Assembly: GCF_000504285.1 (NCBI RefSeq)
Contig: NZ_KI632511.1
Span: forward strand, 307,372 to 371,371
DNA: 64,000 bases
Direction: 5' to 3'
Origin: Actinospica robiniae DSM 44927
GTDB taxonomy: Bacteria > Actinomycetota > Actinomycetes > Streptomycetales > Catenulisporaceae
Shown here: positions 5,891 through 25,318 of the stretch, in pieces
Numbering within the stretch: position 1 is the first letter of the stretch
Layout of the letters: each line of letters begins with the position of its first letter
Notes under the pieces: generated by a model
What the model was told of the DNA's origin: nothing
Seen by the model: the letters and a program-made list of their open reading frames with translations, nothing else
The model's database searches: none
Position numbers and translations under genes: made by a program

Positions 5891-6262
5891 GTGCGGAAAC
5901 CCGCACCGGTCGCCCGGCCCGAGCGCAGCGCACACCCGGCCCGGAAGGGGTGGATCCTCTCCTCGCTCGGGCAGGCGCAGCCAGATCAGGGTTCTGCCGG
6001 GGGCGCAAGCGGCGCAACGACAACCACCCCACCAGCCCAAACCACCGCCGCTTGCACCCCCGGCAGGTTCCTGATGTCCTCCGGTGACCGAGCGAGGAGA
6101 GGAACCACCCCGCACCCCACCCACCCACCCGGAAAACCCCAACCCACCAGCAACCCCCTCTCCGAGCGAAGGGCCCCTCGGAGAGACAAAAAACCCAAAC
6201 CGAAACTCCCGCAAGCCAACCGAACATCAGGCGGTCTACCAGCCCAACACCAAGCAGCATTA
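5891..6262. repeat. Right inverted-repeat arm, HNH element 1
   Basis: Inverted copy of 3675-4048 that begins just after the HNH stop codon. It ends in CAGCATTA at about 6255-6262. Differences from the left arm are mostly single substitutions. Confidence 0.85.
5957..6101. repeat. Nested double stem in right arm of element 1
   Basis: Outer stem 5957-5970 pairs with 6088-6101 over 14 bases. Inner stem 5994-6014 pairs with 6046-6066 with one mismatch over 21 bases. Same layout as 3841-3985. Confidence 0.8.
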
Positions 6263-6528: not shown

Positions 6529-8244
6529 GTGGCGGAAGAGGGGAACGTGCCAGCACGGGCAATACAGCGTCCGGATTCCCTTCCCCACTTGCTGGACATC
6601 CGGGCGTGGCAGGAGCCGGAGCGGATCGCGGTCCAGGTGCTGGGCGGGGGCTCGCTCAAGTTCGGACGCTGGCGGGCCGGGGCGCGAACCCTTGCCGCGG
6701 CACTGGCGGAACGCGGCGCTCGGCCGGGGGACCGGATCGCGCTGCGCTTCGACGCGCGCGAGTGGGACGAATACGCGCTCTGCTTCCTCGGTGTGCTCGC
6801 GGCCGGCTGCGTGGCCGTCCCGCTCTCGGAGCGGGCGGCGCCGGCCGAGACGGCTTATATGCTCGGGCACTGCGAGCCCGTGGGCGTGCTGCGCGGCGCT
6901 CGCTTGGACGTGCCGGCCGGGCCTTGGTGGGTCGAGAGTGAGCCATTCGGCGGCGTGGGCGACAGTTCCGGCGGGAACGATGGGGTCGCTGACGAGCCGT
7001 TCGGGGTCGCGGGCGAAAGTCCCGACGCGAGCTACGGGGTCGCTAAGGAGCCGTTCGGGGTCGTGGGCGACAGTTCCGACGGACGCCCCGGGGTCGCTGG
7101 CGAGCCGTTCGGGGTCGTGGGCGACGGCTCCGGCGGGCGCGCCGGGGTCGCTGGCGAGCCGTTCGCTTCCTGGGGTCCCGGCCATCCGGCGCAGATCCTG
7201 TACACCTCCGGCACCACCGGCCGTCCCAAGGCCGTGCTCGCCGACCACGCCAATCTGGTGCATGGCTGCGTGCTCGACCCTCGGCGTCAGCCGCTGCGGC
7301 ACTCCGAGCGCTTCCTGCACGCGTTCCCGATCGGCACCAACGCCGGTCAGACCATGCTGGTCAACGCGCTCAACGCGCACGCGGCGGCACTGGTCGCGCC
7401 GCAGTTCCGGGCTCGTTCCTTCGCTCGGGCCGTGGAGGCGCACCAGGTCGGTTCGGTCTTCCTGGTCCCGGCCATGGCCGCTGAGCTGGTCGGGTCGGAC
7501 GCAGCCGACCGGGCCGACCTGACGGGTGTTCGGCTCGTTGGTTCCACCGCCGCACCGCTCCCGCCTGCTCTCGCGGTCGGCCTGGCCAAGATCTTCCCCG
7601 CCGCAACTGTCATCAACACCTACACGTCCACGGAGGCGGCGCCCGCCTTCACCTCGATGATTGTCGACCCGGCTCGCCCCGCGGCCCTCGGCCGCCCGGT
7701 CGACGGAGCGGTTCGGATCCTCGACGAGCACGGCGCGGAGGTCGGGTCGGGCGCCACCGGCGAGGTCTGGCTGCGCTCGCCGGTCTCGCCGCGCTCCTAC
7801 TATCGGGCCGAGGTGACCGATGGGGCAGTTTTCCGCGGCCGCTGGATTCGCATGGGCGACCTCGGCTATTTCGACGACGACGGCTTCCTCTTCCTCGTCG
7901 ACCGAGACGGCGACGTCATCAAGACCGGGGCGTTCAAGGTCTCCACGTTGCAGGTGGAGAACGCCTTGCATGAGCATCCCGCGGTGACCGATGCGGCTGT
8001 GTTCGGCCTCGGCCACCCGGTGCTCGGCATGGTCCCGGCCGCCGCTGTCGTGCTCGGCCCGCAGGTCACCGCCGAGGAGCTGCGTGCGTTCCTGGCGCCG
8101 AAGGTGGCCTCACACGCGGTACCGCAGCGCATCCTGTTCCTGCAGGAACTGCCGCGCAATCCGGCCGGCAAGGTCCTCAAGCGGCTGCTGCGCGAGCAGG
8201 CCGAGCAGTCCGCCACCGTCCGCGCTGATCGCTCCCCCGTATGA
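6529..8244 (+). CDS. AMP-dependent acyl/aminoacyl ligase (free-standing adenylation protein)
   Basis: 571 residues from GTG 6529 (GGAGA upstream). Adenylate-forming enzyme motifs occur in order: ILYTSGTTGRPKA (A3) near residue 223, NTYTSTEAAP (A5), MGDLGYFDDDGF (A7), VIKTGAFKVS (A8) and NPAGKVLKR with the catalytic Lys (A10). It probably activates a carboxylic or amino acid and loads it on a carrier, most simply the free carrier at 11386 (inference). An in-frame four-copy repeat (6940-7155) is inserted between the N-terminal subdomain and A3, which is not normal for the family. The stop overlaps the next ATG by 4 nt. Confidence 0.85.
   Translation: MAEEGNVPARAIQRPDSLPHLLDIRAWQEPERIAVQVLGGGSLKFGRWRAGARTLAAALAERGARPGDRIALRFDAREWDEYALCFLGVLAAGCVAVPLSERAAPAETAYMLGHCEPVGVLRGARLDVPAGPWWVESEPFGGVGDSSGGNDGVADEPFGVAGESPDASYGVAKEPFGVVGDSSDGRPGVAGEPFGVVGDGSGGRAGVAGEPFASWGPGHPAQILYTSGTTGRPKAVLADHANLVHGCVLDPRRQPLRHSERFLHAFPIGTNAGQTMLVNALNAHAAALVAPQFRARSFARAVEAHQVGSVFLVPAMAAELVGSDAADRADLTGVRLVGSTAAPLPPALAVGLAKIFPAATVINTYTSTEAAPAFTSMIVDPARPAALGRPVDGAVRILDEHGAEVGSGATGEVWLRSPVSPRSYYRAEVTDGAVFRGRWIRMGDLGYFDDDGFLFLVDRDGDVIKTGAFKVSTLQVENALHEHPAVTDAAVFGLGHPVLGMVPAAAVVLGPQVTAEELRAFLAPKVASHAVPQRILFLQELPRNPAGKVLKRLLREQAEQSATVRADRSPV
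6940..7155 (+). repeat. 54-bp in-frame tandem repeat in ligase gene
   Basis: Four consecutive 54-base units at 6940-6993, 6994-7047, 7048-7101 and 7102-7155, plus a 15-base partial unit. Each encodes 18 residues beginning EPFG and ending GVAx (for example EPFGVVGDSSDGRPGVAG). Units 3 and 4 are the most alike. Because the unit is a multiple of three, copy-number changes would keep the frame. Confidence 0.92.
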
Positions 8245-11200
8245 GTTCAGGAGTTCCGTTGACCATCGCCACGCCCGCCCAGTACGGGATCTGGCTCACC
8301 GAGCAGAGTTCGGACTGCGGCACGCTCTACCACATGCCGATCATCGTGGATCTGGCCGGGCCGGTGCGCGAGGACGCGCTGCTCGGCGCGTGCCGGGCCG
8401 TGGCTGATGCGCACCCGGCGCTCGCTTCGGTCTTCCGCTCCGACGGCGACGGGCTGCAGGTCGAGGCGGGCCCGCCACCGCCGGTGACACTCGCCGACGT
8501 GTCACCCTCCGATTTGGAAGCGCTTACCGCACGGCTCTTCGACGAGCCCTTCGATCTGGCCGCGGGTCCGCTCGCCCGTTTCCACGTGCTGCGGGTGACG
8601 GCCGAGCGCTACCGGATCGCGTTCGTCGCGCATCACGCCGTGTTCGACGGGATGAGCAAAGACGTGCTCGTCCATGACCTGGCTGGGTGCTACCGCGATG
8701 CCACTGTCGCGTTGAGCCCGATGGGCGCCACGGAGCCCGTGGACGGCGGCGTGCCTGAGCCGGCGTTCCTGCCGACCGATTATCGGAACTGGAAGGAGCG
8801 CCACCCGTCGCTCCCGGGCGGCCCGCGCCCGTCCGTCCTGCCCACGCTCGGGGCTTGCGCCCGCGTCGTCCTCGACGCCGGACTGCGTGACCGGATCGGC
8901 GCCGCAGCGGCGGATCTCGGCCGGACGAAGTTCGAGCTCTACGCTGCGGCGTTGGCCGCGCTGCTGCGCCGATACGGAGCCGTCCGGCCGCAGTTCAGCA
9001 TCCAGCTCTCCACCCGACCGCGCACGGCCGAGCGCGCCGTCGGGCTGTTCGTCAACGAGCTGCCGGTCACCTTCGACCCCGATCCTGCGCTGCCGTTCGC
9101 GAACTGCGCCGAGCACGCGTCGGACCGGCTTCGCGAGGTGTACCGGGTGCGCAACATCCCGCCGGCTCGTCTGCTCGGCAAGCTCTCTCCGCGCAGCGCC
9201 GTGGCCGCGGTCTCGCTGAGCTATCGTGCGGCGGGGGAGGAGCCCGACTTCGGCGACGTCGACGCCCGGGTCGACTGGGCCGTGTTCTGCGGCACTGCGC
9301 GCAACACCTTGAACGTGCAGGTCGTCGACCGCGGCGAGCAGACCGAGCTCATCCTGCAGTATCCGGCCACGGCCTGGGCCGCCGGCCGGATCGACGTGGT
9401 CGCAAGCCACTACGTCGCGCTGCTCGACGGCGGTGTGTCCAGTCTGATCCCGATCGGCGACCTGCCGCTGATCACCGAGGCCGAAAGCGCCGCGCTGCTC
9501 GCCGACGCCGTCGCTCCGGCCCCCGCCGAGCCGCCCTCGCGGACGTTGCCTGAGGCGATGGACCGTCAGGCGCTGGCGACCCCGGACGCGATCGCCGTCA
9601 CCGTTGGATCCAAGGACCTGACGTACCGGCAGCTCTCGGCAGCCTCCGATCTCGCTGCGCGGCGGCTGCGGGCGCTCGGTGTGCGTCCCAGCGATCTCGT
9701 GGCCGTGACGACGCCGCGTACGTCCGAACTGCTGCCGGTCCTGCTCGGCATTCTCAAGGCGGGCGCTGCGTACGTCCCGGTCGACCCGGAGTACCCGGCG
9801 GACCGCATCGCCTTCGTCCTCGAGGACTGCCAGGCGGTGCTGGTTGTGTCCGGCGACGAAGATGACGCGTCTCACGTTCCGGCACGCGTCCTGCTAGAGC
9901 CGGCCCCGCCCGGCACAACCGAAGTCGACGACTTCGCCGCCGCCCTGCCCGCTCCCTCGCTCGACGCGACCGCCTACGTGATCTACACGTCGGGTTCCAC
10001 CGGGCGCCCCAAAGGCGTGCGCGTCGGCCACCGGCCGCTGATCGGCCTGCTCAAGGCGATGGCCGATTTCCTCGAATCCGGCCCGGACGCGGTTTGGCTA
10101 GCCGTCACCTCGCTCTCCTTCGACATCGCAGCCGTCGAGCTATACGTACCGCTCATCACCGGCGGCCGCTGTGTCCTCGCTCCGGACGGCGCGGCGAAGG
10201 ACGGCCCGGGTCTGTGCGGCCTGCTGGCCACCTCGGCGGCCACGCATGCCCAGGCCACCCCGGCCGGCTGGCGGGTGCTGACGGAGTCCGGCTTCGAGGC
10301 GCCGCATCTGACCGCCGCCACCGGCGGCGAGGCGCTCACGCCCGAGCTCGGCCGCGAGCTGTCCGGCCGGGTCAAACGGCTGGTCAACTGCTACGGCCCG
10401 ACCGAGGCGACGATCTGGGCCACCACCGCGCCGGTGGAGGGGAGCGGTGAAGTCGAGCCGATCGGCCGCCCGCTGCCCGGCTACCGCGCCTACGTCCTCG
10501 ACGAGCGCCTGGGGCTGCTGCCCGACGGCGTCGCGGGCGAGCTGTACCTCGGCGGCAGCGGCCTGGCCGAAGGCTACCTGCGCCGGCCCGGCCTGACCGC
10601 GGACCGCTTCGTGCCGGACCCGTTCGGCCCACCTGGAACCCGGCTCTACCGGACTGGGGACCTCGCGCGTCGCCGCGGGGACGGCAGCCTGCTCTTCCTC
10701 GGCCGCGTCGACCACCAGGTGAAGGTAAGCGGATACCGCATCGAGCCCGGGGAGATCGAGACGGCGCTCGCCGGGCACCCGGCCGTCATCCAGGCCATCG
10801 TCTCAGCGGTCGAGCACGAGGGTGGACCGGCTCGGCTCACCGCGCACGTGCTGCGCGCGGAACCAGGGTTCGACGACGCGGCGGAGCTGCGCCGGCACCT
10901 CGGCGCGCTGCTGCCGGCGTACATGGTCCCGTCGGCGTTCGCCTTCCTCGACGCCTGGCCGCTCACGCCCAACGGGAAGGTCGACCGGGCCGCCCTGCCG
11001 GCCGCGGTCATCACCCGCGACGCGCCGCCACCGCCACCGCCACCGCCCGGGCAATCTGAGCAGCAGCTCGGGCAGGCCGACGCGTCCGACCCGGTACTCG
11101 CCGGCCTGCTCGAGATCTGGTGCGAGGTGCTGGGCTTCGACGACCTCGGCCCGGACGAAGACCTGTTCGACCTCGGCGGCCACTCGCTGACGGCCATCCA

Positions 11201-11312
11201 GCTCAGCGCCCGGATCCGCGAGCGCTTCGGCGTCGACATACCGGTCGACGTGTTCTTCGACGAGCCGACCGCAGGCGAGATCGCTCTCCGCGTCGCCCGG
11301 GCGCGCTCATGA
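8241..11312 (+). CDS. NRPS module 1 (C-A-T)
   Basis: 1023 residues. Condensation domain 5-430 with HHAVFDG near residue 131. Adenylation domain about 440-945 with [11 protein letters not shown] near 583, NCYGPTEATIW, YRTGDLARR and the NGKVDR Lys. Carrier domain about 955-1020 with GGHSLTA carrying the phosphopantetheine Ser. A hand-read specificity code is D-I-V-Q-A-T-C-I-W-K, loosely like the glycine code; treat this as weak. A proline run (near residue 930) links A and T. Start and stop both overlap neighbours by 4 nt. It adds one residue in the assembly line. Confidence 0.93.
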   Translation: MSSGVPLTIATPAQYGIWLTEQSSDCGTLYHMPIIVDLAGPVREDALLGACRAVADAHPALASVFRSDGDGLQVEAGPPPPVTLADVSPSDLEALTARLFDEPFDLAAGPLARFHVLRVTAERYRIAFVAHHAVFDGMSKDVLVHDLAGCYRDATVALSPMGATEPVDGGVPEPAFLPTDYRNWKERHPSLPGGPRPSVLPTLGACARVVLDAGLRDRIGAAAADLGRTKFELYAAALAALLRRYGAVRPQFSIQLSTRPRTAERAVGLFVNELPVTFDPDPALPFANCAEHASDRLREVYRVRNIPPARLLGKLSPRSAVAAVSLSYRAAGEEPDFGDVDARVDWAVFCGTARNTLNVQVVDRGEQTELILQYPATAWAAGRIDVVASHYVALLDGGVSSLIPIGDLPLITEAESAALLADAVAPAPAEPPSRTLPEAMDRQALATPDAIAVTVGSKDLTYRQLSAASDLAARRLRALGVRPSDLVAVTTPRTSELLPVLLGILKAGAAYVPVDPEYPADRIAFVLEDCQAVLVVSGDEDDASHVPARVLLEPAPPGTTEVDDFAAALPAPSLDATAYVIYTSGSTGRPKGVRVGHRPLIGLLKAMADFLESGPDAVWLAVTSLSFDIAAVELYVPLITGGRCVLAPDGAAKDGPGLCGLLATSAATHAQATPAGWRVLTESGFEAPHLTAATGGEALTPELGRELSGRVKRLVNCYGPTEATIWATTAPVEGSGEVEPIGRPLPGYRAYVLDERLGLLPDGVAGELYLGGSGLAEGYLRRPGLTADRFVPDPFGPPGTRLYRTGDLARRRGDGSLLFLGRVDHQVKVSGYRIEPGEIETALAGHPAVIQAIVSAVEHEGGPARLTAHVLRAEPGFDDAAELRRHLGALLPAYMVPSAFAFLDAWPLTPNGKVDRAALPAAVITRDAPPPPPPPPGQSEQQLGQADASDPVLAGLLEIWCEVLGFDDLGPDEDLFDLGGHSLTAIQLSARIRERFGVDIPVDVFFDEPTAGEIALRVARARS

Positions 11313-11389
11313 GCGAGCTTGCGAGCGAATCAATGAGCACTGTGCGCTCGCTCATGCGCCTCCCGCGCGCTGGCGAGGTGGTGGCATGA
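11309..11389 (+). CDS. Possible 26-codon ORF bridging NRPS-1 and carrier gene
   Basis: MSELASESMSTVRSLMRLPR followed by AGEVVA. Its ATG overlaps the NRPS-1 stop (ATGA at 11309-11312), and its stop overlaps the carrier ATG (ATGA at 11386-11389), exactly filling the only gap in the overlap chain. The DNA is also palindromic (CGCTCATGAGCG at the start) and contains related GCTCATG/CATGAGC blocks. It could instead be a dispersed repeat whose translation merely keeps ribosomes coupled. No function is assigned. Confidence 0.35.
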   Translation: MSELASESMSTVRSLMRLPRAGEVVA

Positions 11390-11658
11390 GCGCCGCGACC
11401 GCCGCCGAGCTGCGGCAGAAGCTGGCCGAGCTGATCAGCGTGGCCTGCGACGGCGAGGTCTCCGCCGAGCGGATCGCGCGCGACGCGGAGAGCCCGCTGG
11501 CCGTGCTCGGCGTCGGCTCGCTCGCCCGGCTGCGCCTGATCGACGCGATCGAGGACGAGTTCGGTCTGTTCGTCGAGGCCGACGACATCTTCGAGGCCCT
11601 CGAAACCCTGAGCGCGCTGGCCGACTGGCTGGGCGCGCGCCTGGAGGAGACGCAATGA
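11386..11658 (+). CDS. Free-standing acyl/peptidyl carrier protein
   Basis: 90 residues, the usual carrier size. The phosphopantetheine attachment motif is LGVGSLARLRL (Ser near residue 46), followed by IDAIEDEFGLFV, which matches helix III of acyl carrier proteins better than NRPS carrier domains. The upstream GAGG is a good ribosome binding site. It is a likely acceptor for the product of the AMP ligase at 6529, or for an acyl starter (inference). Both ends overlap neighbours by 4 nt. Confidence 0.85.
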   Translation: MSAATAAELRQKLAELISVACDGEVSAERIARDAESPLAVLGVGSLARLRLIDAIEDEFGLFVEADDIFEALETLSALADWLGARLEETQ

Positions 11659-14600
11659 CCACCTTCCCGCAGGACGCGGTCGTGCGCGTCGCCCCGCTGA
11701 CCGTCGGGCAGACGCGGCTGTGGTTCGCCGACCGGATGGACCCGGGCGATCCCGCCTACAACATGCCGATCGTGCGGCGTCTGACCGGCCTGCTCGACGC
11801 CGAGGCGATGCGCCGGGCCTTCGCCGCGTCCGTGCGGCAGCACGAGATCCTGCGCACGGTCTACCAGGACGGACCTGACGGCCCGGTCCAGAACGTGCTG
11901 CCGTATCAGGGTTTCGAGATCAGCCACTCCGACCTGACCGAGGTGCCGGAAGCGCAGCGGATGGAGCAGGCCGACGCGCTCTTGCGTGCCCGTTCCAACC
12001 AGCGGTTCGACCTCGAGCGCGGGCCGGTGCTCGACGTCTGCCTGATCCGGCTGGCTGCGCAGGACCACCTGCTCTGCGTCGTGCTGCACCACATCGCCGG
12101 CGACGGCTGGTCGCTCGGGGTCTTGTTCCGGGAGGCCGAGGAGGCGTACGCCGCGTACGTCGCGGGGCTTGAGCCCCAGCTGCCGCCGCGGAGCCTCCAG
12201 TACGCGGACGTGGCCGAGCGGCAGCTGGATCGGCTGGCCAGCGCGGACGCGAAGGCCGCGGTCGCCTACTGGGCCGAGCGGCTGGGGGACTGCCCGGTCC
12301 TCGAATTGCCGACCGACCGCCCGCGTCCGGCTGTGCGTGGCTCGGCGGGCGCCGCGCTGACCCTCACCCTCGACGCCGCTCTGGCTGCCCGGATTGCCCG
12401 GCTAGCCAAGGACCAGCGGGTCACGCCCTTCATGACCATGCTTACGGCCTTCGAGATCCTGCTTGCGCGGCACAGCGGTCAGCAGGAGGTGACCGTGGGC
12501 TCGCCGGTCGCGGGCCGTGCGAGCGTCGAGTTCGAAGACATGATCGGTTACTTCGTCGACACCGTCGTACTGCGGGCCGATCTGCGCGACGACCCGACCT
12601 TCCGTGTGCTGCTGCGCCGCACCCGCGCCGACGCGCTCGGCGCGTTCACACACGCGGAGGTCCCGTACGAGCGGCTGCTCGAAGAGCTCGAGGTGCCGCG
12701 CGATCTGAGCCGCACCGCGCTCTACCAGGCCATGTTCGCGCTGCACACGCAGGAGAATGTGAAGGCCGCGCTGTTCACCGGATTCTCCGGCCTCCAGAGC
12801 GTCATCCACGACCCCTCATTCGAGCAGAGCAAAGCAGACCTCTTGTTCGATGCGTGGCCGCACGAGCACGGCATCGAATGCCGATTCACTTACAGCACCG
12901 AGCTTTTCGACGCCTCCACGGTCGAGCGGCTCGCCCGCCGCTTCCGGACGCTGCTCGAAGCGGTGACTGAGGACCCTGACTATCCCGTCTCGCAGATCCC
13001 GCTCTCCACCCCCGACGAGGGCCGGCTGATCGAGCGGGCCGCACGAGGCGAGAGCCCGGCCACGCCGGCGCCGCTCGTCCCGGCGGCCATCGCCGCCGCA
13101 GCAGCCCAACATCCGGATCAGTGCGCGCTGTCCTGGGCCGGCGGCAGCCTCAAGTACGCCGAGCTGCTCACCCGAGTCGAAGCGCTGGCCGCGCGGCTCG
13201 CGGCGGCGGGCGCTGGTCCGGAGAAGGTGGTGGCGCTCGCGCTGCCCAAGGGCCCGAACCTGATCATCTCTATGCTCGCCGCGTGGCGCGCGGGCGCTGC
13301 GTACCTGCCGCTCGATCCTGCGGCGCCGACCGTGCGCAACCTGACGATCCTTGCTGCCTGCGCCCCCGCTGTCATCGCTGCGGAACCGAGCTTCCCCGGC
13401 CTCGACCGGCTGGACGAGTACGAGGTCGAATGTAGTGTTCTGATGGTTGGCGATGTGTCGGCGGACACGCCGATCGACGGCTTGTCGCAGCTCCCGGATT
13501 CTCTTGACGCGGACTCCCTCGCGTACGTCATCTACACCTCCGGTTCGACCGGCGCGCCCAAGGGCGTGCTGATCACCCATCGAGCGCTGGCCGCGCGCGT
13601 GGAGTGGATGCGCGAGTCCTACCGGTTGACCCCGCAGGACCGCGTGCTGCAGTTCTCCGCAGTCACTTTCGACACCCACGTCGAAGAGATCTTCCCGACG
13701 CTCGCCTCCGGTGCGACCCTCGTGCTGCCCGGTGAGCAGGGCGCACTGCTGCCCGACTTCCTCGCCACCCCGGATGCCGACGGGCTCACCGTGCTCGACC
13801 TGCCCACCGCGTACTGGCACGAACTGGTGGCCGAGGCGGACGAGATCCGATGGCCCGACACGCTCCGCCTGGTGATCCTCGGTGGCGACCAGGCGTCCGG
13901 CGCCGCGGTCGGAGCTTGGCGCGAGCGTTTCGGCGACCAGATCGAGACCGTCAACACCTACGGCCCGACCGAGGCGGCGGTGATCGCCACCGCAGCCCGG
14001 CTGGGCGCGGCCGACGCCGCAGGGCGGCCGAGCATCGGCGGCCCTATCGGCCGAACCACAGCGCGCGTGCTCGACGCCGCACTCGAACCCGTCCCCGTCG
14101 GCGTCCCCGGCGAGCTGTACCTCGGTGGCGACGGCCTGGCCCGCGGCTATCTCGGCGCGCCGGGAGCGACCGCGGACCGCTTCATCCCCGACCCCTTCGG
14201 GACGCCGGGTTCCCGGCTCTACCGCACCGGCGACCGGGTGGTGCTGCGGTCCGACGGCACGCTCGTCTTCCTCGGCCGTGGTGACCACCAGGTCAAGATC
14301 CGCGGGTTCCGGGTCGAGCCGGCCGAGGTCGAGGCGCGACTGGCCGCACACCGCCGGCTCTCCGGCGCGGTGGTGCTCGTGCGGGGTGAGGCGACTGAGC
14401 GCCATCTGGTCGCCTACGTCGTGCCGAAGCCCGGCGCCGAGCCCACGGCCGAAGAGCTGCGCGACTACATCGGCGCTGCGCTGCCGGCCTACTTCGTACC
14501 CGCGGCGATCATGGTCCTGCCCAAGTTCCCGTTGAACGCACACGGAAAGATCGACACGGCCGCCCTGCCGGTCCCGCCCCGGCCGGACGCAGTGACCGCC

Positions 14601-14906
14601 GAGTACGTGCCCTGCGAGTCGCTTGCCGAGCAGCTGGTCGCCGAGGTCTTCGCCGGACTATTCGAGCTCGATCAGGTCGGCGCGCTCGACGATTTCTTCG
14701 ACCTCGGTGGCCACTCCCTGCTCGCGATGAAAGTGGTCGGCCGGCTGCGGGTGGCGAGCGGCGTCGCGCTGCCGATCAAGGCCCTGTTCGCGGACTCGAC
14801 TGTGCGCGGGATCGCGGCCGAGCTCGAGCGCCTGTTGGAGCAGGAGATCGACGCCCTCACCGACGAGGAAGTACTCGGAGAACTGGCCGGGCAGGAGGGG
14901 CAGTGA
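11655..14906 (+). CDS. NRPS module 2 (C-A-T)
   Basis: 1083 residues. Condensation domain about 5-450 with HHIAGDG near 145. Adenylation domain about 470-985 with YTSGSTGAPKG near 626, NTYGPTEAAV, YRTGDRVVLR and NAHGKID. Carrier domain with GGHSLLAMK near 1018. The hand-read code D-T-E-D-V-L-T-V-I-K has two acidic pocket residues, which suggests a basic amino acid such as Lys, Orn, Arg or diaminobutyrate (inference). The C-terminal tail is acidic and helical. It probably adds the middle residue. Confidence 0.93.
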   Translation: MTTFPQDAVVRVAPLTVGQTRLWFADRMDPGDPAYNMPIVRRLTGLLDAEAMRRAFAASVRQHEILRTVYQDGPDGPVQNVLPYQGFEISHSDLTEVPEAQRMEQADALLRARSNQRFDLERGPVLDVCLIRLAAQDHLLCVVLHHIAGDGWSLGVLFREAEEAYAAYVAGLEPQLPPRSLQYADVAERQLDRLASADAKAAVAYWAERLGDCPVLELPTDRPRPAVRGSAGAALTLTLDAALAARIARLAKDQRVTPFMTMLTAFEILLARHSGQQEVTVGSPVAGRASVEFEDMIGYFVDTVVLRADLRDDPTFRVLLRRTRADALGAFTHAEVPYERLLEELEVPRDLSRTALYQAMFALHTQENVKAALFTGFSGLQSVIHDPSFEQSKADLLFDAWPHEHGIECRFTYSTELFDASTVERLARRFRTLLEAVTEDPDYPVSQIPLSTPDEGRLIERAARGESPATPAPLVPAAIAAAAAQHPDQCALSWAGGSLKYAELLTRVEALAARLAAAGAGPEKVVALALPKGPNLIISMLAAWRAGAAYLPLDPAAPTVRNLTILAACAPAVIAAEPSFPGLDRLDEYEVECSVLMVGDVSADTPIDGLSQLPDSLDADSLAYVIYTSGSTGAPKGVLITHRALAARVEWMRESYRLTPQDRVLQFSAVTFDTHVEEIFPTLASGATLVLPGEQGALLPDFLATPDADGLTVLDLPTAYWHELVAEADEIRWPDTLRLVILGGDQASGAAVGAWRERFGDQIETVNTYGPTEAAVIATAARLGAADAAGRPSIGGPIGRTTARVLDAALEPVPVGVPGELYLGGDGLARGYLGAPGATADRFIPDPFGTPGSRLYRTGDRVVLRSDGTLVFLGRGDHQVKIRGFRVEPAEVEARLAAHRRLSGAVVLVRGEATERHLVAYVVPKPGAEPTAEELRDYIGAALPAYFVPAAIMVLPKFPLNAHGKIDTAALPVPPRPDAVTAEYVPCESLAEQLVAEVFAGLFELDQVGALDDFFDLGGHSLLAMKVVGRLRVASGVALPIKALFADSTVRGIAAELERLLEQEIDALTDEEVLGELAGQEGQ

Positions 14907-17900
14907 ACACGGACACCGCGACTGCCGAGTCCCGGCGCGCCTTGCTCGAAGCCCGCTTGCGTGGCGGCCTCGTGAACGCGGGCGTCGGCGCGGGGACGGC
15001 CTCGCGCGAGCCGATCCCGCCTCATTCCGGACCAGTCGACTGCCCGCCGTTGTCCTTCGCGCAAGAACGGCTCTGGTTCCTCGATCAGCTCACTCCGGAC
15101 AGCGCCGCGTACACGCTGCCGATCGCGGTTCGGATCCGCGGCTGCCTGGACGAGCCAGCGCTGCACCGAGCCCTCGCCGCCGTGGTCGAGCGGCACGAGC
15201 CGGTGCGCACGGTTTTTCCGGCCGACGAGGACGGCGCGCCGAGCGCCCATGTGACCACGTTCCCGGTTACCATCGAGACGGCGGACTTCGACGACCTCGA
15301 CGTCGCATGGCCCTGGCTCACGGAACGTGGCCACCGCCCCTTCGACCTCGCCGCCGGCCCGCTGCTGCGCGCCTACCTCGCCCGCCTCGGCGACAACGAC
15401 CACGTGCTCCTGCTGGCTGTGCACCACATCGTGTGCGACGGATCGTCAGCGGGACTGCTGCTGCGCGATTTATGGGACTACTACCGCTCCGCGACCGGCT
15501 GCGGATCCACGGAACTCAGTACCTTGCCCGTCCGATACGGCGACGTCGCAGCCTGGCAGCGTGACCGGATGGAGAGCGCCCAAGGCCGCGCCGACCTCGC
15601 GGCCTGGTGCACCCGGCTCGCCGGAACACCCGTGCTCGACCTGCCGACCGACCGGCCGCGGCCTGCGGAGATCGACTACGCGGGCGCCTGGCACACCTTC
15701 CAGCTCGGCCGACAGACTGCGCTCGCCGTCGAGGCGCTCGCCCGCGCAACCCGGACCACGCCGTTCATCGTGCTGCTCGCCGCCTACCGCGCGCTGCTCG
15801 GCCGGTGGAGCGGCCAGAGCGACTTCGCCATCGGCTCCCCGGTCGCCGGGCGCGGCCACCCCGACACCGAGCAACTCGTCGGCATGTTCGTCAACACCGT
15901 GGCGCTGCGAGTGGAGTCGAGCGGCGACCCGACTTTCCGCGCGCTGGTCGGACGGACCGCCGCCGTCGCCCTCGAGGCCTACGAGCGCGAACACGTCCCG
16001 TTCGAGCGAATCGTCTCCCAGCTCGCGCTGCCCCGGGACACCAGCCGCACACCCGTCTTCCAGACGACCTTAGCGCTGCAGAATTACGAACGGCCCGTCT
16101 TCGCCGAAATCGGCCTCGCATTCGAGGCCGTACACCTCGGCGGCACGCAGACGCACGCGGACCTCGCCCTTTACGCCGAACGCAACGATGAGGGCCTGAG
16201 CTGCACCTTCACCTACCGCACCGCCCTTTTCGACGAGGCGAGCACGCAGGCGCTCGGACGACGATTCAGCACCTTGATCGAGCAGGTCACGACCGACCCG
16301 GATCTGTCGGTTTCGGAGATCGTGCTCACCAGCCCGCAGGAGCGGCGCATCGAGGTGGCCGAGTCCACCGGCGACCCCGTGCCCGAGGCCCCGGCCCCGA
16401 CCCTGCATGGGCTCGTGGAGGCGCAGATCAGCAGGGTGCCCGACAACGTCGCCGTGGTCTGCAATAGTCGGAGTGCGACGTATGCGCAGCTCGGTGCCGA
16501 CGCGGACCGGATTGCCCGGCGCCTGCGTGCTCTAGGCGCGGGCACGGAAAGCCGCGTCGGCGTGCTGTTGGAGCAGTCCGTCGAACTGGCCGCCGCCGTC
16601 CTCGGCGTGCTGAAGGCCGGCGCCGCCTACGTGCCGCTCGACCCCGAGCAGCCTGCCGAGCGACTCGCCGTCATGACCGAGGACTGCGGCATGGCAGCGC
16701 TCGTGACGACGTCCGACCTGCTCGGCAAGCTCAAGGCCGTCCCCGATGACCTGGTCCTGCTCGACGTCGAGCCTACCGACTTGCCCGCTGACGCCGAAAC
16801 CCACGTCGATCCTGCGAACCTCGCCTACGTGATCTACACGTCCGGATCCACCGGACGTCCCAAAGGCGTCGCGGTGGCGCACCGACAGGCCGTCAACTAC
16901 GTCGCGGCGGTCTCGGCCCGCATCCCGATCGAGCCGGGCGCGCGACACCTGCTGATGCAGTCACTCTCCTTCGACTTCGGCCTGACGCTCTTCTATTCCT
17001 GTCTTGCTGCGGGCGGCGCCCTGCACCTGCTGCCCCCGCGCAGCAGCGGACGCGATGTGGCCGATTACATCCGCGAAAACCGGATCGACTACCTCAAGCT
17101 CACCCCTTCGCACTTCGAAGCCCTCACCGCCGACGCCGGCTTCGGGGAACTGCTGCCCGCCAAGGCGCTGCTCTTCGGCGGCGAGGGTTCGGTCTGGTCC
17201 CGGACCCGGGAACTCGCCGCGACCGGGGTGCGGATCGTCAACCATTACGGACCGACCGAGGCGACGGTGGGCGTCGCCACCCAAATCGTCGATCCCAGCA
17301 TCGAGCCGATCACGACGACGACCCCGATCGGCCGACCGCTGCCCGGCGCGTGCGTATATGTGCTCGATGAAGCGATGGAGCCGGTGCCGCGCGGCGCTGT
17401 CGGCGAGCTCTACCTCGGCGGAGACCGGCTCGCCCGCGGCTACCTGGGACGCCCAGGTCAGACCGCCGACCGCTTCGTCCCCGACCCGTTCGGCCCACCC
17501 GGCGCGCGCATGTACCGCTCGGGCGACCTCGGCCGCCGCCTGCCGGACGGGTCGATCGAGTTCCTCGGGCGGCGCGACCTGCAAGTGAAGATCCGCGGCT
17601 ACCGAGTCGAACCCGGCGAGATCGAAGCCGCGCTCGCCGCCCTGCCCGGAGTCCGGCAGGCCGTGGTGGACGTGCGCGGCACCCGGGCGGAGCCGATGCT
17701 CATCGGGTATCTCGTCCGCGCGGCCGGCCCGGAACCGCTGGCTGACGCGGATCCGTCGGCCGACGAGGCGGCGTTGCGGCGCGCGCTGCGCGACCACCTG
17801 CCCGACTACATGGTGCCCGCCCGCCTGGTCTGGCTGGACGCGCTTCCGCTTGCCGACCATGGCAAAGTCGATCGCAGGGCCCTGCCGGAGCCGCCGGCGC

Positions 17901-20500
17901 GTGCCGCGACCGGCGTCGGCGAGCCGCCGTCCGGACCGGTCGAGGAGCAGATCGCGCGGATCTTCGAAGCCGTACTGGGGCTGGCGAGTGTGGGCGCCGA
18001 CGACGACTTCTTCGAGATCGGCGGCCACTCCCTGCTCGCGGTGCGCGTCGTGGCCAAGCTGCGTGCGCTGGTGCCCGAAGGACAACGGCCGCCGGGGGTC
18101 ATGGATCTGTTCAAGGCCCCGACCGTGCGCACTCTGGCGGCACTGCTGGCCGACCCGTCGCCGGCCGGCGACGACCGTCCGCTGATACACCGGCTCACCC
18201 CCGCCCGCCCGGCCGGCGCGACCGCCGGTACCGTCGTCTGCGCGCCCTACGGTGGCGGCAGTGCACTGATATATAAGCCGCTCGCCGACGTGCTGCCGGA
18301 CGACTGGGCCCTGTACTCGATCGCTGTCCCCGGCCACGAACTCGGGGAACAGGCCCGGCCGATTCCGGAAGTGGCCGCCGACTGCGTGCGCGAGATCCTG
18401 GCCCACGTTCAGGGCCCGCTGGTGCTCTACGGCCACTGCGGGCTCGGCGTGATGCTCACCGTGGAGATCGCGCGGCTGCTCCAGGAGGCCGGACGTCTGA
18501 TCGAGGCCGTGTACCTCGGCGGCATCTTCCCCTTCGCCCGCACCCGTGGCCCGGTCGCGCGACTCGCCGCGCGCATGTCGATCTGGCGTGACGGCCTGCG
18601 CAGCGACAGATGGATGGTCAACGCGCTTGCCGCGGCCGGACTCGACGTCGAGGAGATCGACCCGGAACAGCTCGCCCTGATCGTGCGCAACCGCCGCGAC
18701 GGCACTCGCGAAGCAGAGGCCTACTTCGGCACCGTCTTCACGGACCCTCCGCTCACGCTCGACGCGCCGGTGATCGCGGTGATAGGGGAGCGGGACCCGG
18801 CGGGGGAGTTCTACCAGGAGCGCTACCGCGAATGGCTTGGGATCTCCGCGACCGCCGGCCTGGTCGTGCTGGACGAAGCAGGGCACTTCTTCCTGCGCTA
18901 CCGCGCCGGAGAGCTGGCCGAGATCGTCACCGGCGTCCACCGCGCGATCGCCGAGCCGCAGCCCATTGAGCCGCAGCCCATTGAACCGGCGGCGATCGAG
19001 CCGTCGCCGATCGAGGCGGCTCGGGCAGCGACGGAGCCGCCCGCTGTCCGCGACGATCCCTCCTGGGCCGGCCGCTACCGCCGTATGCCCGGCTCCACCT
19101 GGTGGCTGCACGCCGTCGCCCGGGGCCACGACTCGCGCGAGGCCGACGGAGTCCAGCCGAGCATGGGCCGCTTCCTGTCCGTCGCCGGCGGCCAGACCGT
19201 CTCCATGCTCGGCTCCGCCCTCACCGAGTTCGCCATCCCGATCTGGGTCTTCGCCCGGACCGGCTCGCTCGCCCGCTTCGCCCTGTTCTCCGTGGTCGCG
19301 CTGGTGCCCGGCATCCTCGCCGCTCCGATCGCTGGCACGGTCGCCGACCGGTTCAGCCGCAAGCGCGTCATGCTGCTCGGCGACGGCTGTGCCGGGCTGA
19401 CGCAGGCCGCGCTGGCGGTCCTGTACTTCAGCGGACACCTCCAGCCCTGGCATATATACGTACTGCTGGGCGTGCTCTCGCTGGCACTCACCTTCCAACG
19501 CCTGGCGTACACGTCGTCGGTCGCGCAGTTGGCGCCGAAGCGCTACCTCGGCCAGGCGATCGGCTTCATGCAGACCGGAAACGGACTGGTGCAGTTCTTC
19601 GTTCCGCTGGTCGCCATCGGCGTACTCGCGGCCATCGGCCTGGGCGGGATCCTGGCCTTCGACGTCGTCAGCTATCTGTTCGCCATCGGCGTCACGGCAT
19701 ACGTCCGGTTCCCTGACACGCTCGGCTGGCGTCGGCGCGAGACCGTGGGCGCCGAGATCAGGGAGGGCTTCCGGTTCTCGGCGGGCAACCGCGGGCTGCG
19801 CGCCCTGCTGCTCCTGTTCGCCGCCGCCAACGTCTTCCTCGCCCCGATGCTGGTGATGGTCTCGCCGCTGGTGCTCTCCTTCGCGCCGCTGCACACCGCT
19901 GCGGTCACCGCGACCTTCTCCGGCGCCGGCGTGGCCATCGGCGGCTTCGCGATCCTGGCCTGGGGCGGCCCGCGCGAGCACCGGATGCGCGCGGTGCTCG
20001 CGTTCCTCGCCGCATTCGCCGTGTTCGGCGCGATCGCCGGGGCGCGGCCCTCAGCGGCGCTGGTGGCGGCCGGAGGGTTCGGCATGGCCCTGACGGTGAC
20101 CCTGATGAACGGCGTCTACATGGCGATCGTCCTGGTGAAGGTGCCGTTGCGCTTCCACGGCCGCGTCTTCGCGCTCAACACGCTCGTCGCCTGGTCGACG
20201 ATCCCGCTGGCCAACGGCGTGCTCGGCCCTCTGACAGCACGCTGGCTCGCCCGCGCCGCCGGAGTGAGCGCCGGCCGCGGCATCGGCCTGTCCTACGAGC
20301 TGTTCGCCGCGCTGCTGCTGCTCACGGTTTTGATCGCGAGCCGGATCCCCGCCGTCGCACGATTCGACAGCGTCGCCCCGGACGCCCAGATCGACGACGA
20401 AGTCGGCCTCGCCGCCCTCGCTGCCTCCGCCCGCATCCCGCACCAAACGCAGCACGATTTCTCATCCACGAAGAAAGACAAAACGGAGGTGGCGCCGTGA
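14903..20500 (+). CDS. NRPS module 3 (C-A-T-TE) fused to an MFS exporter
   Basis: 1865 residues. C domain about 50-480 (HHIVCDG near 174). A domain about 500-1005 ([11 protein letters not shown] near 644; hand-read code D-F-T-K-L-F-H-V-G-K, Asp/Asn-like). Carrier GGHSLLAV near 1040. Thioesterase about 1100-1350 with nucleophile elbow GHCGLG (Cys, not Ser, near 1177), an Asp in GERDPA and His in EAGHFF near 1325. A Pro/Glu linker with EPQPI-type repeats leads into a 10-12 helix MFS_3-type transporter (about 1420-1825) with the DRFSRKR loop. One polypeptide would complete, release and export the peptide. The fusion is continuous with no frameshift. Confidence 0.93.
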
Positions 20501-20715
20501 GCGTCGAAGAAGCCCAGATCCCGCAGCCGCGCTTCGCCGTCGTCGTGAACGACGAGGAGCAGTACTCGGTGTGGCCCGAGGGCAAGGAGATGCCTGCGGG
20601 CTGGCGCGAGGAGGGCACTGTCGGCACGCGACCGGAATGTCTCGAGCACATCGAAGCCGTCTGGACCGATCTGCGCCCGCGTTCGCTGCGCGAACAAGCC
20701 GCGACTGCCGGCTGA
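20497..20715 (+). CDS. MbtH-like NRPS accessory protein
   Basis: 72 residues from GTG 20497 with GGAGGT upstream, overlapping the NRPS-3 stop by 4 nt. Family signatures are present: [20 protein letters not shown] and [14 protein letters not shown]. MbtH proteins bind adenylation domains and help them fold or work. As the last gene of the operon it should serve the three modules upstream. Confidence 0.95.
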
Positions 20716-21779: not shown

Positions 21780-24700
21780 TTATGACGGCTCGGTGCCGTA
21801 GGCCAGGGTGCCGTTCACGTACACCGTCACCTTGGTCCAGTCGGTGTACGCGGTGTTGGTGCCGTAGCTGTAGTCGTTGGTCTCGCTGAAGCTCGACCAG
21901 TCGGTCTTGTTCAACCGGTTCTGGATCTGGCCGGTCGACGCGCCCGCGGCGAGGCTGCCCGCACCGCTGGTGAAGCCGACCTGCAGGTAGTGGTCCGCGC
22001 CGGTCTTGGGCGTGGCCATGGCCACGACCGAGTGCGTGACGTTGCCCGAACCGACCACGGCGTAGTCGCAGTAGGTGCTGAAGGTGCTCGCACCGCCGTC
22101 GCTGGTGAACCAGTACCGGACGGTCACGGTCGACAGGGCCAGCGCGGCCGTGCCGGTGTTGACCACCTGCAGGCCCGGCTTGATCTGGTTGTCCGTGGGC
22201 GCCGTGTCCAGGTTCGCGTACTGCACCTTGACCGTGCCGGTCCCGGTCCCGCCGCCGGCCGCCGAGGTGGTGGCGCTGACCGCGTTCGACGCGGTCGAGT
22301 TGTTGCCGGCGGCGTCGTTCGCGGTCACCGTGTAGCTGTACGCCGTGGAGGCGGTCAGGCCGGTGTCGGTGTACGTCGTGCTGGTGCTGGTACCGACCTG
22401 CGTGCCGTTGCGGAAGACCTTGTACCCGGTCACCGCGACGTTGTCGGTCGACGCGGTCCACGAGAGCGAGACGGTGGTGCTGGTCTCGCCGGTCGCCTTC
22501 AGGTTGGTCGGCGCCGAGGGCGGCGTGGTGTCGCCGGTGCTGCCGGCGGACGTGGTGGCGCTGACAGTGTTCGACGAGGTCGAGAGGTTCCCGGCGGCGT
22601 CGGTCGCGATCACCGTGTAGCTGTACGCCGTGGAGGCGGTCAGGCCGGTGTCGGTGTACGTCGTGCTGGTGGTGGTGCCGACCTGGGTGCTGTTGCGCAA
22701 GACGTGGTAGCCGGTGACGGCGACGTTGTCGGTCGACGCGGTCCACGAGAGCGAGACGGTGGTGCTGGTCTCGCCGGTCGCCTTCAGGTTGGTCGGCGCC
22801 GAGGGCGGCGTGGTGTCGCCGCCGGTCGTGGTGCCGGCGTTGACGATCAGGTCCGCGTACACGGCGTAGGCCATGGCGATGTCCGCCTGCGCCCAGAACC
22901 GGTGGTAGGTGAAGCTGGGCGCCGCACCGCCGTTGAGGTACGCCTGGACCTTCGGGAAGTCCGGGTCGTTCTTGTACCAGGACCGGATCGAGAGGAACGT
23001 GGCGCCGGGGGCGATCACGTCGCCGTTGGGCATCTTGCCGGACCAGCCGGACGGCACGTAGACGGTGGCGCCGAAGCTGCTGTAGTCGGTCCGGACCTCG
23101 GGCACCGCGATGCCCTTGGAGTCGGCGAAGGTCGACATCGCGTCGAGCAGGCTCTTGGCGAGGGCGCTGTAGGTGGTGTTGCCGGACTTCGCGGCGTAGT
23201 AGGTCAGTGCCTTGACGTACGCGGCGCAGACACCGACGTCGTTGCCGTAGTCGGCGATGCTCACGTGCAGCCCCGTGTTGCTGCCCGGGCTCGACGGGTT
23301 CCAGGTGTCCGGCTGGCCGGACCAGCCGAGCGTGGAGGGGATCGAGAAGTTCGTGGCGGTGACCGTGGTCTCCGAGGCGGCCCACGCCATCCACTTGTCC
23401 AGGATCTTCTTCGCGGTCGCGTTCCCGGTCACGTAGTAGTACTCGGCAAGCCGCTCGACGCCCCACGCCTGCATGCCGAACCAGTTGTTGCTCGGCGGGT
23501 CGTGGTAGACCGGCTCCCAGTCATAGGCCATGCCGTAGAACGTCGAGTCGCCCGACGGCGGAGTGCTGTACGAGCCGTTCCAGCTGTTGGTGCAGCCGCC
23601 GGCGAGCGCGCCCTCGGCGGACTGGAGCCACTGCAGGAACTCCAGCTGCCGGCCCAGGCTGCTCGCCCAGTCGCCCTTCGCGGTCGGCGACATCGGCGTG
23701 AGCGCGGCCACGTTCGACATCGCGTAGGCGGCCAGCGGGTTCTGGTAGCCCTGGTGCGAGGCGCCGTCGCCGATGCGCCACGCCCAGCCGCCGCCGGGCT
23801 CCGCTCCGCCCCAGGCGTAGTACCAGGCCAGCAGGTAGTGCTCGGAGCTGCGCGAGCTGCCGGCGGCGCAGCCGCTGGCGCTGGTGCAGTTGCCGATCTG
23901 CTTGAAGTACTTGTCGAACAGCGAGTAGCGCAGGAAGTCGCCCATCTTGGCGGCCTTGGCCACCGAAGCGGAGACCTGGCTGCCGGAGCCTTGCGCCGCG
24001 GCCCACGTGTACGCCCAGTACGCGGCCTGAACGGCGCGGGCGTCGGCGTCCGGGGCGTTCGTGTACTTCCACTGCTGCGAGTAGGCGCTGGACTGCTTGA
24101 CGAACAGGTCCAGGTAGCCGTTCGTGCCGCCGTACTTGAACAGGTCGGTGCAGGGCTGGGGGATCGTCAGCCACACCGACTCCGCGGAGCCGCGCTGGTA
24201 GCTGTTGATGTAGGACGGTCCGGTCGCTGTCGGGCCGGCCTCCGCCCCGGTGCCGGGGGTGTTGCCGTAGCCGTAGGTGTTGTCGACATCCATCAGCCAG
24301 TGCATGCCGTAGATGTCCGACGTGCCGTACGTCGAGGTCAGCTCGCCGGCGAGCGGGTCCTGGCCGACGGCGACGGAGGAATCGAGCGGGCTCGGGTAGT
24401 CGCTGGGGTCGGGCCACTCCGGCGCGTAGGTGGCCGGCGAGCTCGCGTTGTACGAGCTGTTGCTCGGCTGGTCCACGTGCTGCGGGATGATGTAGTGCTC
24501 CGCGGTGGTCCAGGCGTTGTTGAAGGCCGTCCAGTCGCCGGTCACCCGGCCGTAGGTGGCCTCGAGCCAGAACCAGAAGCTGAACGCCTCGGAGGTGGTC
24601 TGGTGCCCGTGGTCCGGCGCCTCGACGATGAGCGTCTCGACGCAGTGGTACGGGATCCCTTCCGGGCTGAAGTAGCCGTTCGCCGAGTTTTTGATCTTGG

Positions 24701-24869
24701 CGTACTGGGTCAGGAACGCCTGGGTGTAGGCGTCGGTGGCGGCCGCGGCGGGCGTCGCCGCGCCGGCGGTGGCGGCTCGTGCCTTCGCGAGTGTGGGCAG
24801 GCCGCCCACCGCCATCAGCGCGGTGCCGGCCGTGACGGCAAAGCGCCGTCGAGACAGGGATTCAGCCAT
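21780..24869 (-). CDS. Secreted GH48 cellulase with two FN3 domains and a CBM3
   Basis: 1029 residues from ATG 24869 (AAGGAG upstream). Twin-arginine signal peptide (SRRRFAVTAG). The catalytic GH48 domain (about 45-680) has the family hallmark PEGIPYHCVETLIVEAPDHG and the TTSEAFSFWFWLEA segment. Two nearly identical fibronectin type III domains follow (about 683-775 and 778-870), then a family-3 carbohydrate-binding module (about 875-1029, KVQYANLD to VNGTLAYG). GH48 enzymes are processive cellobiohydrolases acting on crystalline cellulose. A LacI-type operator half-palindrome lies about 65 bases upstream, suggesting sugar control. The gene separates the NRPS operon from the second condensation protein. 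Confidence 0.93.
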   Translation of the reverse strand: MAESLSRRRFAVTAGTALMAVGGLPTLAKARAATAGAATPAAAATDAYTQAFLTQYAKIKNSANGYFSPEGIPYHCVETLIVEAPDHGHQTTSEAFSFWFWLEATYGRVTGDWTAFNNAWTTAEHYIIPQHVDQPSNSSYNASSPATYAPEWPDPSDYPSPLDSSVAVGQDPLAGELTSTYGTSDIYGMHWLMDVDNTYGYGNTPGTGAEAGPTATGPSYINSYQRGSAESVWLTIPQPCTDLFKYGGTNGYLDLFVKQSSAYSQQWKYTNAPDADARAVQAAYWAYTWAAAQGSGSQVSASVAKAAKMGDFLRYSLFDKYFKQIGNCTSASGCAAGSSRSSEHYLLAWYYAWGGAEPGGGWAWRIGDGASHQGYQNPLAAYAMSNVAALTPMSPTAKGDWASSLGRQLEFLQWLQSAEGALAGGCTNSWNGSYSTPPSGDSTFYGMAYDWEPVYHDPPSNNWFGMQAWGVERLAEYYYVTGNATAKKILDKWMAWAASETTVTATNFSIPSTLGWSGQPDTWNPSSPGSNTGLHVSIADYGNDVGVCAAYVKALTYYAAKSGNTTYSALAKSLLDAMSTFADSKGIAVPEVRTDYSSFGATVYVPSGWSGKMPNGDVIAPGATFLSIRSWYKNDPDFPKVQAYLNGGAAPSFTYHRFWAQADIAMAYAVYADLIVNAGTTTGGDTTPPSAPTNLKATGETSTTVSLSWTASTDNVAVTGYHVLRNSTQVGTTTSTTYTDTGLTASTAYSYTVIATDAAGNLSTSSNTVSATTSAGSTGDTTPPSAPTNLKATGETSTTVSLSWTASTDNVAVTGYKVFRNGTQVGTSTSTTYTDTGLTASTAYSYTVTANDAAGNNSTASNAVSATTSAAGGGTGTGTVKVQYANLDTAPTDNQIKPGLQVVNTGTAALALSTVTVRYWFTSDGGASTFSTYCDYAVVGSGNVTHSVVAMATPKTGADHYLQVGFTSGAGSLAAGASTGQIQNRLNKTDWSSFSETNDYSYGTNTAYTDWTKVTVYVNGTLAYGTEPS
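22257..22820 (-). repeat. Duplicated FN3 modules in GH48 gene
   Basis: Two FN3-coding units with a 285-base period; for example the TTGGTCGGCGCCGAGGGCGG block recurs at the same phase in each. The near-identity of DNA, not only protein, indicates a recent duplication or gene conversion. Confidence 0.85.
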
Positions 24870-25318
24870 GACAGCCTTTCTCCTTCGGGGCAATCTGGGT
24901 GATCGTGGGAAGGCTAGGCATGGCCCTTCGGGGCCGTAAAGCGCTTACCGCAAAATCCGGGGCGCGGCCGAGCCGGATTTCTTCGGCCGCGGAGCGGCCC
25001 GCGACGGCTCCAGCGCTTGAGAACAACGGCCATGGCCTGCGCCCGAGCCCGCGGAGGCCTCTCGCGCCGCTTCGGGCGGGCGCCGCGCCGGACGGGCCGG
25101 ATTCACCGCCGGTTTTCGTGAAGCTTTCACACCTGGAGCAACGCCGATATCAATGCTCTTAATCTCGTCTTCATCTCCGTGCGCTCCGGCGCGGGAGCGA
25201 AAATTTCGCGGCCTTGACAGCGCCGAACCCGCGGGCGGCGGGCGCGGCCGCGCGGGCGCGGTTGACACCCGGGGCGGCGGTGAGTCAGGTTCCTGATTGT
25301 CGTCGAGAGGGGCGGGCC
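24870..25318. promoter_or_regulatory. Divergent promoter region, GH48 / condensation protein 2
   Basis: About 450 bases without a convincing gene. It holds the GH48 ribosome binding site and a LacI-type operator candidate near 24935-24950. An A/T-richer stretch at about 25120-25210 (CACCTGGAGCAACGCCGATA region) could hold the promoter for the rightward gene. Confidence 0.4.
24935..24950. promoter_or_regulatory. LacI-family operator candidate
   Basis: CGTAAAGCGCTTACCG: a perfect AAGCGCTT core (24939-24946) with nearly symmetrical flanks, typical of LacI/CebR-type operators that control cellulase and sugar genes in actinobacteria. It lies 66-81 bases upstream of the GH48 start. Confidence 0.5.

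Follow-up and report, generated by a model that had tools for sequence, protein, structure and literature searches.

A Cys-type thioesterase fused to an MFS transporter domain in a short NRPS line of Actinospica robiniae

What a thioesterase (TE) does with a finished peptide when its nucleophile is Cys and its own chain runs on into a transporter is the question raised by one NRPS gene of Actinospica robiniae DSM 44927. The gene lies in a 64,000-nucleotide stretch of DNA, called the window here, and its features are collected in Table 1. Pfam domains follow one another in the encoded protein as Condensation, AMP-binding, PP-binding, Thioesterase, MFS_1 and MFS_3. An earlier note on this DNA had recorded a Cys in place of the Ser of GxSxG at 18420-18445, completed to a plausible triad by the Asp of GERDPA and the His of EAGHFF, and had pointed to the TEs of the obafluorin and sulfazecin pathways; the continuation of the same protein into an MFS domain was absent from it. 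The Cys is confirmed at the position given in Table 1. The spacing is not that of GxSxG, the elbow being GxCxxG and one residue longer.

Table 1. Features of the gene cluster and of its terminal protein (positions in the window)
Feature	Position	Strand	Basis and remarks
BTAD/NB-ARC transcriptional regulator, divergent	362-2404	-	Pfam BTAD, E 8.4e-35
Lone condensation-like domain, altered motif SHLVTDG	2310-3677	+	Pfam
Stand-alone AMP-forming acid ligase, probable starter loading	6529-8244	+	Pfam AMP-binding; recurrent in family clusters
NRPS module C-A-T, code DIVQAGCIW, read as Gly-like from similarity only	8241-11312	+	Pfam, code; PMC12283262
NRPS module C-A-T, code DTEDIGTVI, acidic pocket, probably basic amino acid	11655-14906	+	Pfam, code; PMC12283262
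Terminal NRPS module C-A-T-TE and MFS transporter in one chain	14903-20500	+	1865 aa, GTG start; ORF, Pfam
Condensation domain, residues 49-481	15047-16345	+	Pfam; HHIVCDG motif intact
Adenylation domain, residues 506-988	16418-17866	+	Pfam; code DFTKLGHVG, Asp-like by similarity
Peptidyl carrier domain, residues 1015-1082	17945-18148	+	Pfam; GGHSL
Cys-type thioesterase domain, about residues 1092-1348	18176-18946	+	Pfam, phmmer, model; edges approximate
Nucleophile elbow GHCGLG	18431-18448	+	Cys1179 codon 18437-18439
Gly1207, position I, counterpart of ObiF1 Gly1173	18521-18523	+	Alignment
Asp1298 (in GERDPA), position II after beta7, counterpart of ObiF1 Asp1254	18794-18796	+	Alignment, model
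Post-beta7 motif Y..RY..W, Tyr1304-Trp1311, common to ObiF1 and SulM	18812-18835	+	
Triad His1328 (in EAGHFF)	18884-18886	+	Alignment
MFS transporter domain, residues 1429-1857	19187-20473	+	Pfam PF07690, PF05977
MbtH-like protein, overlaps the end of the NRPS-MFS gene	20497-20715	+	Pfam, E 2.8e-20

A phmmer search of PDB sequences with the window TE returned ObiF1 first (E 5.3e-24), then BorB (5.4e-12) and RifR (1.4e-10); SulM took rank 8 of 14 (E 5.7e-7), below several type II TEs. With a profile of 62 family members the values were 1.1e-33 for ObiF1, 4.9e-20 for BorB, 7.2e-14 for RifR (two entries) and 4.9e-13 for SulM at rank 5. The ObiF1 alignment and the match of the TE stretch to Pfam Thioesterase (E 2.3e-14) together indicate that GHCGLG is not a chance motif. 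Structure prediction, a check that the earlier note had proposed, places ObiF1 and then SulM as the top fold matches. For the AlphaFold model of the TE (mean pLDDT 81.5), the first five Foldseek matches were all ObiF1 and the SulM TE (E 7.2e-18 and 1.8e-14), and the first three VIA rows belonged to the same two proteins (Z 24.1, 23.0 and 23.0) with RifR at 21.8; VIA rows less than one Z unit apart count as ties, and the gap between SulM and RifR is just over one unit.

The triad suggested from the letters was borne out by alignment with ObiF1, in which Cys1179 pairs with Cys1146, Asp1298 with Asp1254, His1328 with His1284 and Gly1207 with Gly1173. The first three ObiF1 residues are those reported for its triad, and Gly1173 occupies the place usual for Asp (PMC6668435). 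In the model (TE numbering), Cys1179 stands after strand 89-93 and before helix 96-111, Gly1207 after strand 118-122, Asp1298 after strand 206-211 and His1328 after strand 234-239. Asp1298 follows the strand after the lid there, and an Asp-II topology is predicted by the model. According to PMC11298585, ObiF1 and SulM are the only structurally known NRPS TEs with Asp at position II and the only ones showing a composite helix after beta7; these two structurally characterised Cys/position-II NRPS TEs both close four-membered rings.

In the model of the window TE, the region after beta7 contains helices 215-218 and 220-230, a possible counterpart of the alpha-3-10 composite helix, and shares the Y..R[YF]..W motif. 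Counted from the Asp, this motif has Tyr at +6, Arg at +9, Tyr or Phe at +10 and Trp at +13. The window TE, ObiF1 and SulM carry it in full, whereas only its Arg is present in RifR and BorB. The SulM-type Gln-Cys-Asn motif is absent from the window TE, which has His-Cys-Gly. The domain agrees with the ObiF/SulM type of Cys TE in the elbow Cys, the Asp after beta7 and the Gly at position I. That type is also characterised by a beta-OH or beta-N nucleophile on the terminal residue, which the Asp-like code does not indicate. The domain is integrated after a carrier and uses Cys, and so differs from the free-standing Ser enzymes of type II; it also carries Gly1207 at position I, where EntF-like TEs have their Asp (after beta6).

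A TE tree was calculated from 43 rows, namely 28 of the 172 family rows described below, 11 unfused TEs and 4 PDB sequences. The fused family formed one group (99/97), which joined ObiF1 and two unfused Cys-type TEs, L031 and L032 (94/74), apart from RifR and BorB and from an unfused WGH[S/C] clade. SulM sat on a very long branch and its placement was not resolved, and the program gave a warning that L032 and ObiF1, each on a long branch, come together. This phylogeny with Ser- and Cys-type TEs had likewise been proposed in the earlier note, with a position among hydrolytic TEs named as evidence against its reading. The TE groups with ObiF1 and not with the type II pair, support being moderate and the branches long; a placement with hydrolytic TEs is thus, with moderate confidence, not indicated.

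The type II enzymes nevertheless stand behind a rival explanation, in which the Cys-TE is a hydrolase that releases a linear acyl-tripeptide acid, the MFS domain exports this acid, and Cys is merely tolerated where the terminal residue is small and polar. After ObiF1, the solved structures closest in sequence are those of BorB and RifR, and no strained ring readily suggests itself for a terminal Asp. Asp at position II also occurs in some type II TEs with a proof-reading role (PMC11298585). We regard this explanation as rather doubtful in view of the conservation of the Cys over a deep tree, the restriction of Ser to members with other terminal codes (both described below) and the behaviour of published mutants, which gain hydrolysis upon exchange of Cys for Ser. 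In SulM, this exchange leads to rapid hydrolysis of the monobactam (PMC11298585), and in BulbE, it shifts the reaction to hydrolysis (PMC11536411).

The fusion is not peculiar to the window. Of 60 related genomes, 8 carry fused TE-MFS homologues, at 10 places besides the window; one of these places lies in the same genome as the window. This second cluster of the family (L021, C1:3504000-3523999) likewise ends in a Cys-type TE fused to an MFS domain, and its terminal code stands for Ser. In a genome collection, relatives are encoded by 391 of 467 pattern-matching stretches, and the best 80 of these 391 were kept. They come from Streptomyces, Kitasatospora, Streptosporangium, Acrocarpospora, Nonomuraea, Microbispora, Herbidospora, Planomonospora, Micromonospora, Catellatospora, Pseudonocardia and other genera. 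At E 1e-180, a match was present in 52 of 150 sampled genomes from the taxonomic family to which the Planomonospora locus L085 belongs, some genomes having five; at E 1e-150, a phylum-wide sample of 396 genomes, with two candidates per genome scored, gave a match in the window's own genome only. Streptomyces clavuligerus carries a family member on three plasmid records (47% identity).

The window and 204 loci gave 205 rows with a TE; once these were reduced to sequences differing by at least one letter, 172 TEs remained, all with an MFS domain. Asp is found at position II in 171 of them, and the triad Asp and His are both kept in the same number, L194 breaking off before the His. Position I is occupied by Gly (118 of 172) or Ala (54 of 172). 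All four post-beta7 positions are present in 148 of the 172 and three in 23, L194 being unreadable here. The extra residue of the GxCxxG elbow is present in 165 TEs and absent from 7. Six loci with the terminal code DLPKVAEVG (L196, L200, L203, L206, L207 and L208) keep the Cys without the extra residue (GHCVG), as in ObiF1.

The nucleophile and the terminal adenylation (A) code were read by alignment in the same 172 sequences. Cys was found in 163 and Ser in 9. Cys occurs with the codes DFTK (104), DVWH (40), DLYN/DLWN (7), DLPK (6), DFLK (3) and DVRN (1), two codes being unreadable, and Ser occurs with DTED (8) and DAMS (1). Clustering at 90% identity yielded 100 clusters, 96 of the Cys type and 4 of the Ser type (three DTED, one DAMS), none of them mixed. 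PMC12283262 gives DVWH[LM]SLVDK as the code for Ser or dehydroalanine, DLYN[LM]SLIWK as that for Cys, DLTKVGHVGK as that for Asp or Asn and DILQLGMIWK as that for Gly; Glu239 and Asp278 are typical of Arg codes there, a pattern shared by DTED, which probably stands for a basic amino acid. By similarity, DFTK, DLPK and DFLK appear Asp/Asn-like, although DLPK and DFLK (nine Cys-type rows) are counted so only from Lys278 and would be further exceptions if this were wrong. The readable codes of Cys-type members then stand for Ser (40 of the 172 members), Cys (7 of 172) or an Asp-like residue, with one exception, L164 (DVRNTGIMD). A reading of L164 as Ser-type through an upstream PYGHSLYS was rejected, the alignment making it Cys-type; L183 has, also by alignment, its Cys in an SHCLG setting.

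When the nucleophile was masked in the TE tree, the Ser state could be explained by two changes, and the code class needed one more, at L164 (with DLPK and DFLK counted as Asp-like). The Ser-type rows sit inside Cys-type branches, so that the loss of Cys accompanied a change of the terminal code. The tracking of the terminal code by the nucleophile is suggestive in these alignments, two independent switches being too few for a test; a Fisher test (p 3e-14) was not used because it ignores relatedness.

Beyond the 172, the comparison covered TEs with an A domain directly upstream. L031, an unfused TE, has Cys with a Ser code and agrees with the rule, as does L245, with Cys and DFWNVGMVH, which we take to be a Thr code. 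L246, a more distant MFS-fused protein, combines Cys with an Asp-like code. Cys stands with DICHVDAID in L248 and with DMYNFGLIH, read as Thr-like, in L032; neither speaks with certainty for or against the rule. In the neighbouring unfused TE clade the rule is imperfect, DIWQSTADD occurring with Ser in eight TEs and with Cys in two (L234 and L247). The Ser codes of L237 (A-T-C-T-TE) and L241 (similar gap) were left out as support, and L249 was left out of the comparison; in all three, the A domain and the TE are separated.

Among 90 loci, the recurring neighbours are an acid ligase, Gly-like and DTED modules, MbtH (23 loci) and a free carrier protein (26 loci). Genes for pyruvate-dehydrogenase-like E1 alpha, E1 beta and E2 are present at 26, 25 and 24 loci, respectively. 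Such genes occur in L049, L055, L060, L086 and about 20 more loci, often together with the free carrier protein, and perhaps supply the starter acyl group. In the window, the BTAD/NB-ARC gene is, by its position only, a probable pathway regulator; its ORF and that of the lone condensation-like domain overlap by 95 bases as listed, and at least one start is therefore misplaced. Inside the cluster, 315-nt inverted repeats (3717-4031 and 5911-6225, 96% complementary) flank a DUF222/HNH-endonuclease gene (4280-5887), which together look like a mobile unit. A GH48 cellulase gene with fn3 and CBM3 domains (21780-24893, minus strand) lies directly downstream of the cluster. Locus L113, partly upstream of the window, contains a ketoacyl synthase gene and an O-methyltransferase gene (10232-11608 and 12877-13923), which suggest a separate polyketide cluster just upstream.

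In the whole genome no Sulfotransfer_3 match was found (Pfam, E 0.001), the one sulfotransferase family searched, which was matched in 2 of 14 control genomes. TauD-type oxygenases are encoded at nine places in the genome, none of them in the cluster and the nearest about 490 kb away. The Asp_Arg_Hydrox profile left the control genomes silent too, so its result carries no weight on Asp hydroxylation. As far as these searches reach, neither SulM-like sulfation nor evident Asp hydroxylation is encoded beside the window module.

Taken together, these data are best explained by a short NRPS line that would join an acid starter, a Gly-like residue, a basic residue and an Asp-like residue. The finished acyl-peptide would move from the carrier onto Cys1179 of the release (type I) TE as a thioester, with His1328 and Asp1298 at position II activating Cys1179 in the manner of ObiF1 and SulM. 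This thioester would be shielded from water and react with the side chain of its own terminal residue, and the fused MFS domain would then carry the reactive product out. Ser-loading members of the family would produce a beta-lactone and Cys-loading members a beta-thiolactone; for the Asp-type members, as in the window, the simplest product would be a five-membered anhydride of Asp, and a beta-hydroxylated Asp would allow a beta-lactone instead. As a whole, this explanation is tentative and falls somewhat short of an even chance.

The kinship with the obafluorin and sulfazecin TEs claimed in the earlier note stands, with ObiF1 by sequence, with both by fold and through the same Asp position. 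The strained ring that it had thought possible is not supported in that form at this locus, where an Asp-like terminal code is found and neither Gln-Cys-Asn nor Sulfotransfer_3, so that neither a beta-lactone nor a beta-lactam follows directly. To our knowledge, no strained ring is made by a TE from a terminal Asp. The window TE is not classed with beta-lactone or beta-lactam TEs because of its terminal residue, and a cyclic anhydride and plain hydrolysis are both possible outcomes. The Cys alone is not diagnostic either, because the BulbE-TE, which has Cys, makes a macrolactam (PMC11536411).

The 15-membered ring closed by BulbE through its Cys (PMC11536411) suggests another use of the thioester, namely acyl transfer elsewhere: macrocyclisation onto a basic residue or amine, or aminolysis by a separate small molecule. 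A probable basic residue in the chain (DTED code) would suit such a reaction. The Asp of BulbE is, however, at position I, unlike that of the TE-MFS family (PMC11536411), and acyl transfer elsewhere does not predict that the nucleophile tracks the terminal code. Moreover, some members have no DTED module in the fetched stretch; one is L243 of S. clavuligerus (30 kb; elbow YGHCGVG), with starter, Gly-like and Asp-like codes only (NAQFGSVPA, DILQLGVIW and DFTKVGHVG). We consider this explanation distinctly unlikely.

The C-terminal part of the window protein is an MFS transporter by both profile and fold. PF07690 matches it above the family cut-off (Pfam, E 1.7e-14), the NCBIfam match TIGR00900 being below cut-off. 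The AlphaFold model of 19100-20497 (last 466 residues) is helical (pLDDT 83.7), and in Foldseek the MFS transporter LmrP ranks first among its PDB matches, ahead of further transporters; the listed matches are presumably all of the MFS type. A 14-residue loop in this part resembles, in our view, MFS motif A. The match to MFS_3, which we take to be the EntS group, recalls enterobactin synthetase, and the TE might accordingly act iteratively, joining several chains through a Ser, Cys or Asp side chain into an oligomer exported by an EntS-like pump. Ser-terminal members do resemble EntF in module order. Esters of this kind are, however, out of reach for Asp-type members, the triad differs from that of EntF, and the code of the AMP ligase (N..F...P.) appears unlike that for 2,3-dihydroxybenzoate; an iterative TE is very improbable. 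Under the preferred explanation, with ring closure on the terminal side chain, the fusion of the TE to an exporter suggests product channelling and self-protection.

A large actinobacterial family with a Cys-type TE fused to an MFS domain may thus have gone unnoticed: in the open-access literature, we came across no account of the fusion, of the extra elbow residue or of natural variation between Cys and Ser; all three are apparently undescribed, although this does not prove their absence. With natural Cys and Ser variants beside Ser, Cys and Asp-like codes in 172 sequences, the reason why such TEs use Cys becomes testable by comparison. Many uncharacterised clusters may make electrophilic peptides, one of them in Streptomyces clavuligerus, a species that is tractable in the laboratory. 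The widest claim would be a large unrecognised actinobacterial class in which the last NRPS protein both closes and ejects a warhead (Ser beta-lactones, Cys beta-thiolactones, aspartyl anhydrides) and in which natural Cys-to-Ser variants reverted to hydrolysis upon a change of their terminal residue. It is speculative and hardly probable in full; if true, it would represent a route, overlooked so far, by which reactive peptides are both made and ejected.

Among the known systems, the BulbE TE (bulbiferamide macrolactam) shares the Cys nucleophile with the window TE, and Ser cannot replace this Cys; it differs in the Asp at position I and in the large ring (PMC11536411). RifR and BorB, type II proof-reading TEs, are the next nearest in sequence and fold and have Asp at the position-II site in the alignments; unlike the window TE, they are free-standing, use Ser, have one motif position of four and form a separate clade. 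SulM (sulfazecin, beta-lactam) resembles the window TE in the Cys nucleophile, the position-II Asp and the post-beta7 motif and is the second-best fold match. Compared with SulM, the window has no Gln-Cys-Asn, no module assigned to diaminopropionate, no Sulfotransfer_3 in the genome and a weaker sequence match. The elbow insertion of the window family is absent from both SulM and ObiF1. ObiF1 (obafluorin, beta-lactone) has the elbow GHCAG and an integrated MbtH domain where the window protein has its MFS domain; the residue that it loads is a beta-hydroxy amino acid (PMC6668435), the window code being Asp-like. With its Cys nucleophile, the Asp after beta7, the Gly at the usual Asp site and the Y..R[YF]..W motif, ObiF1 is the best match of the window TE by both sequence and fold.
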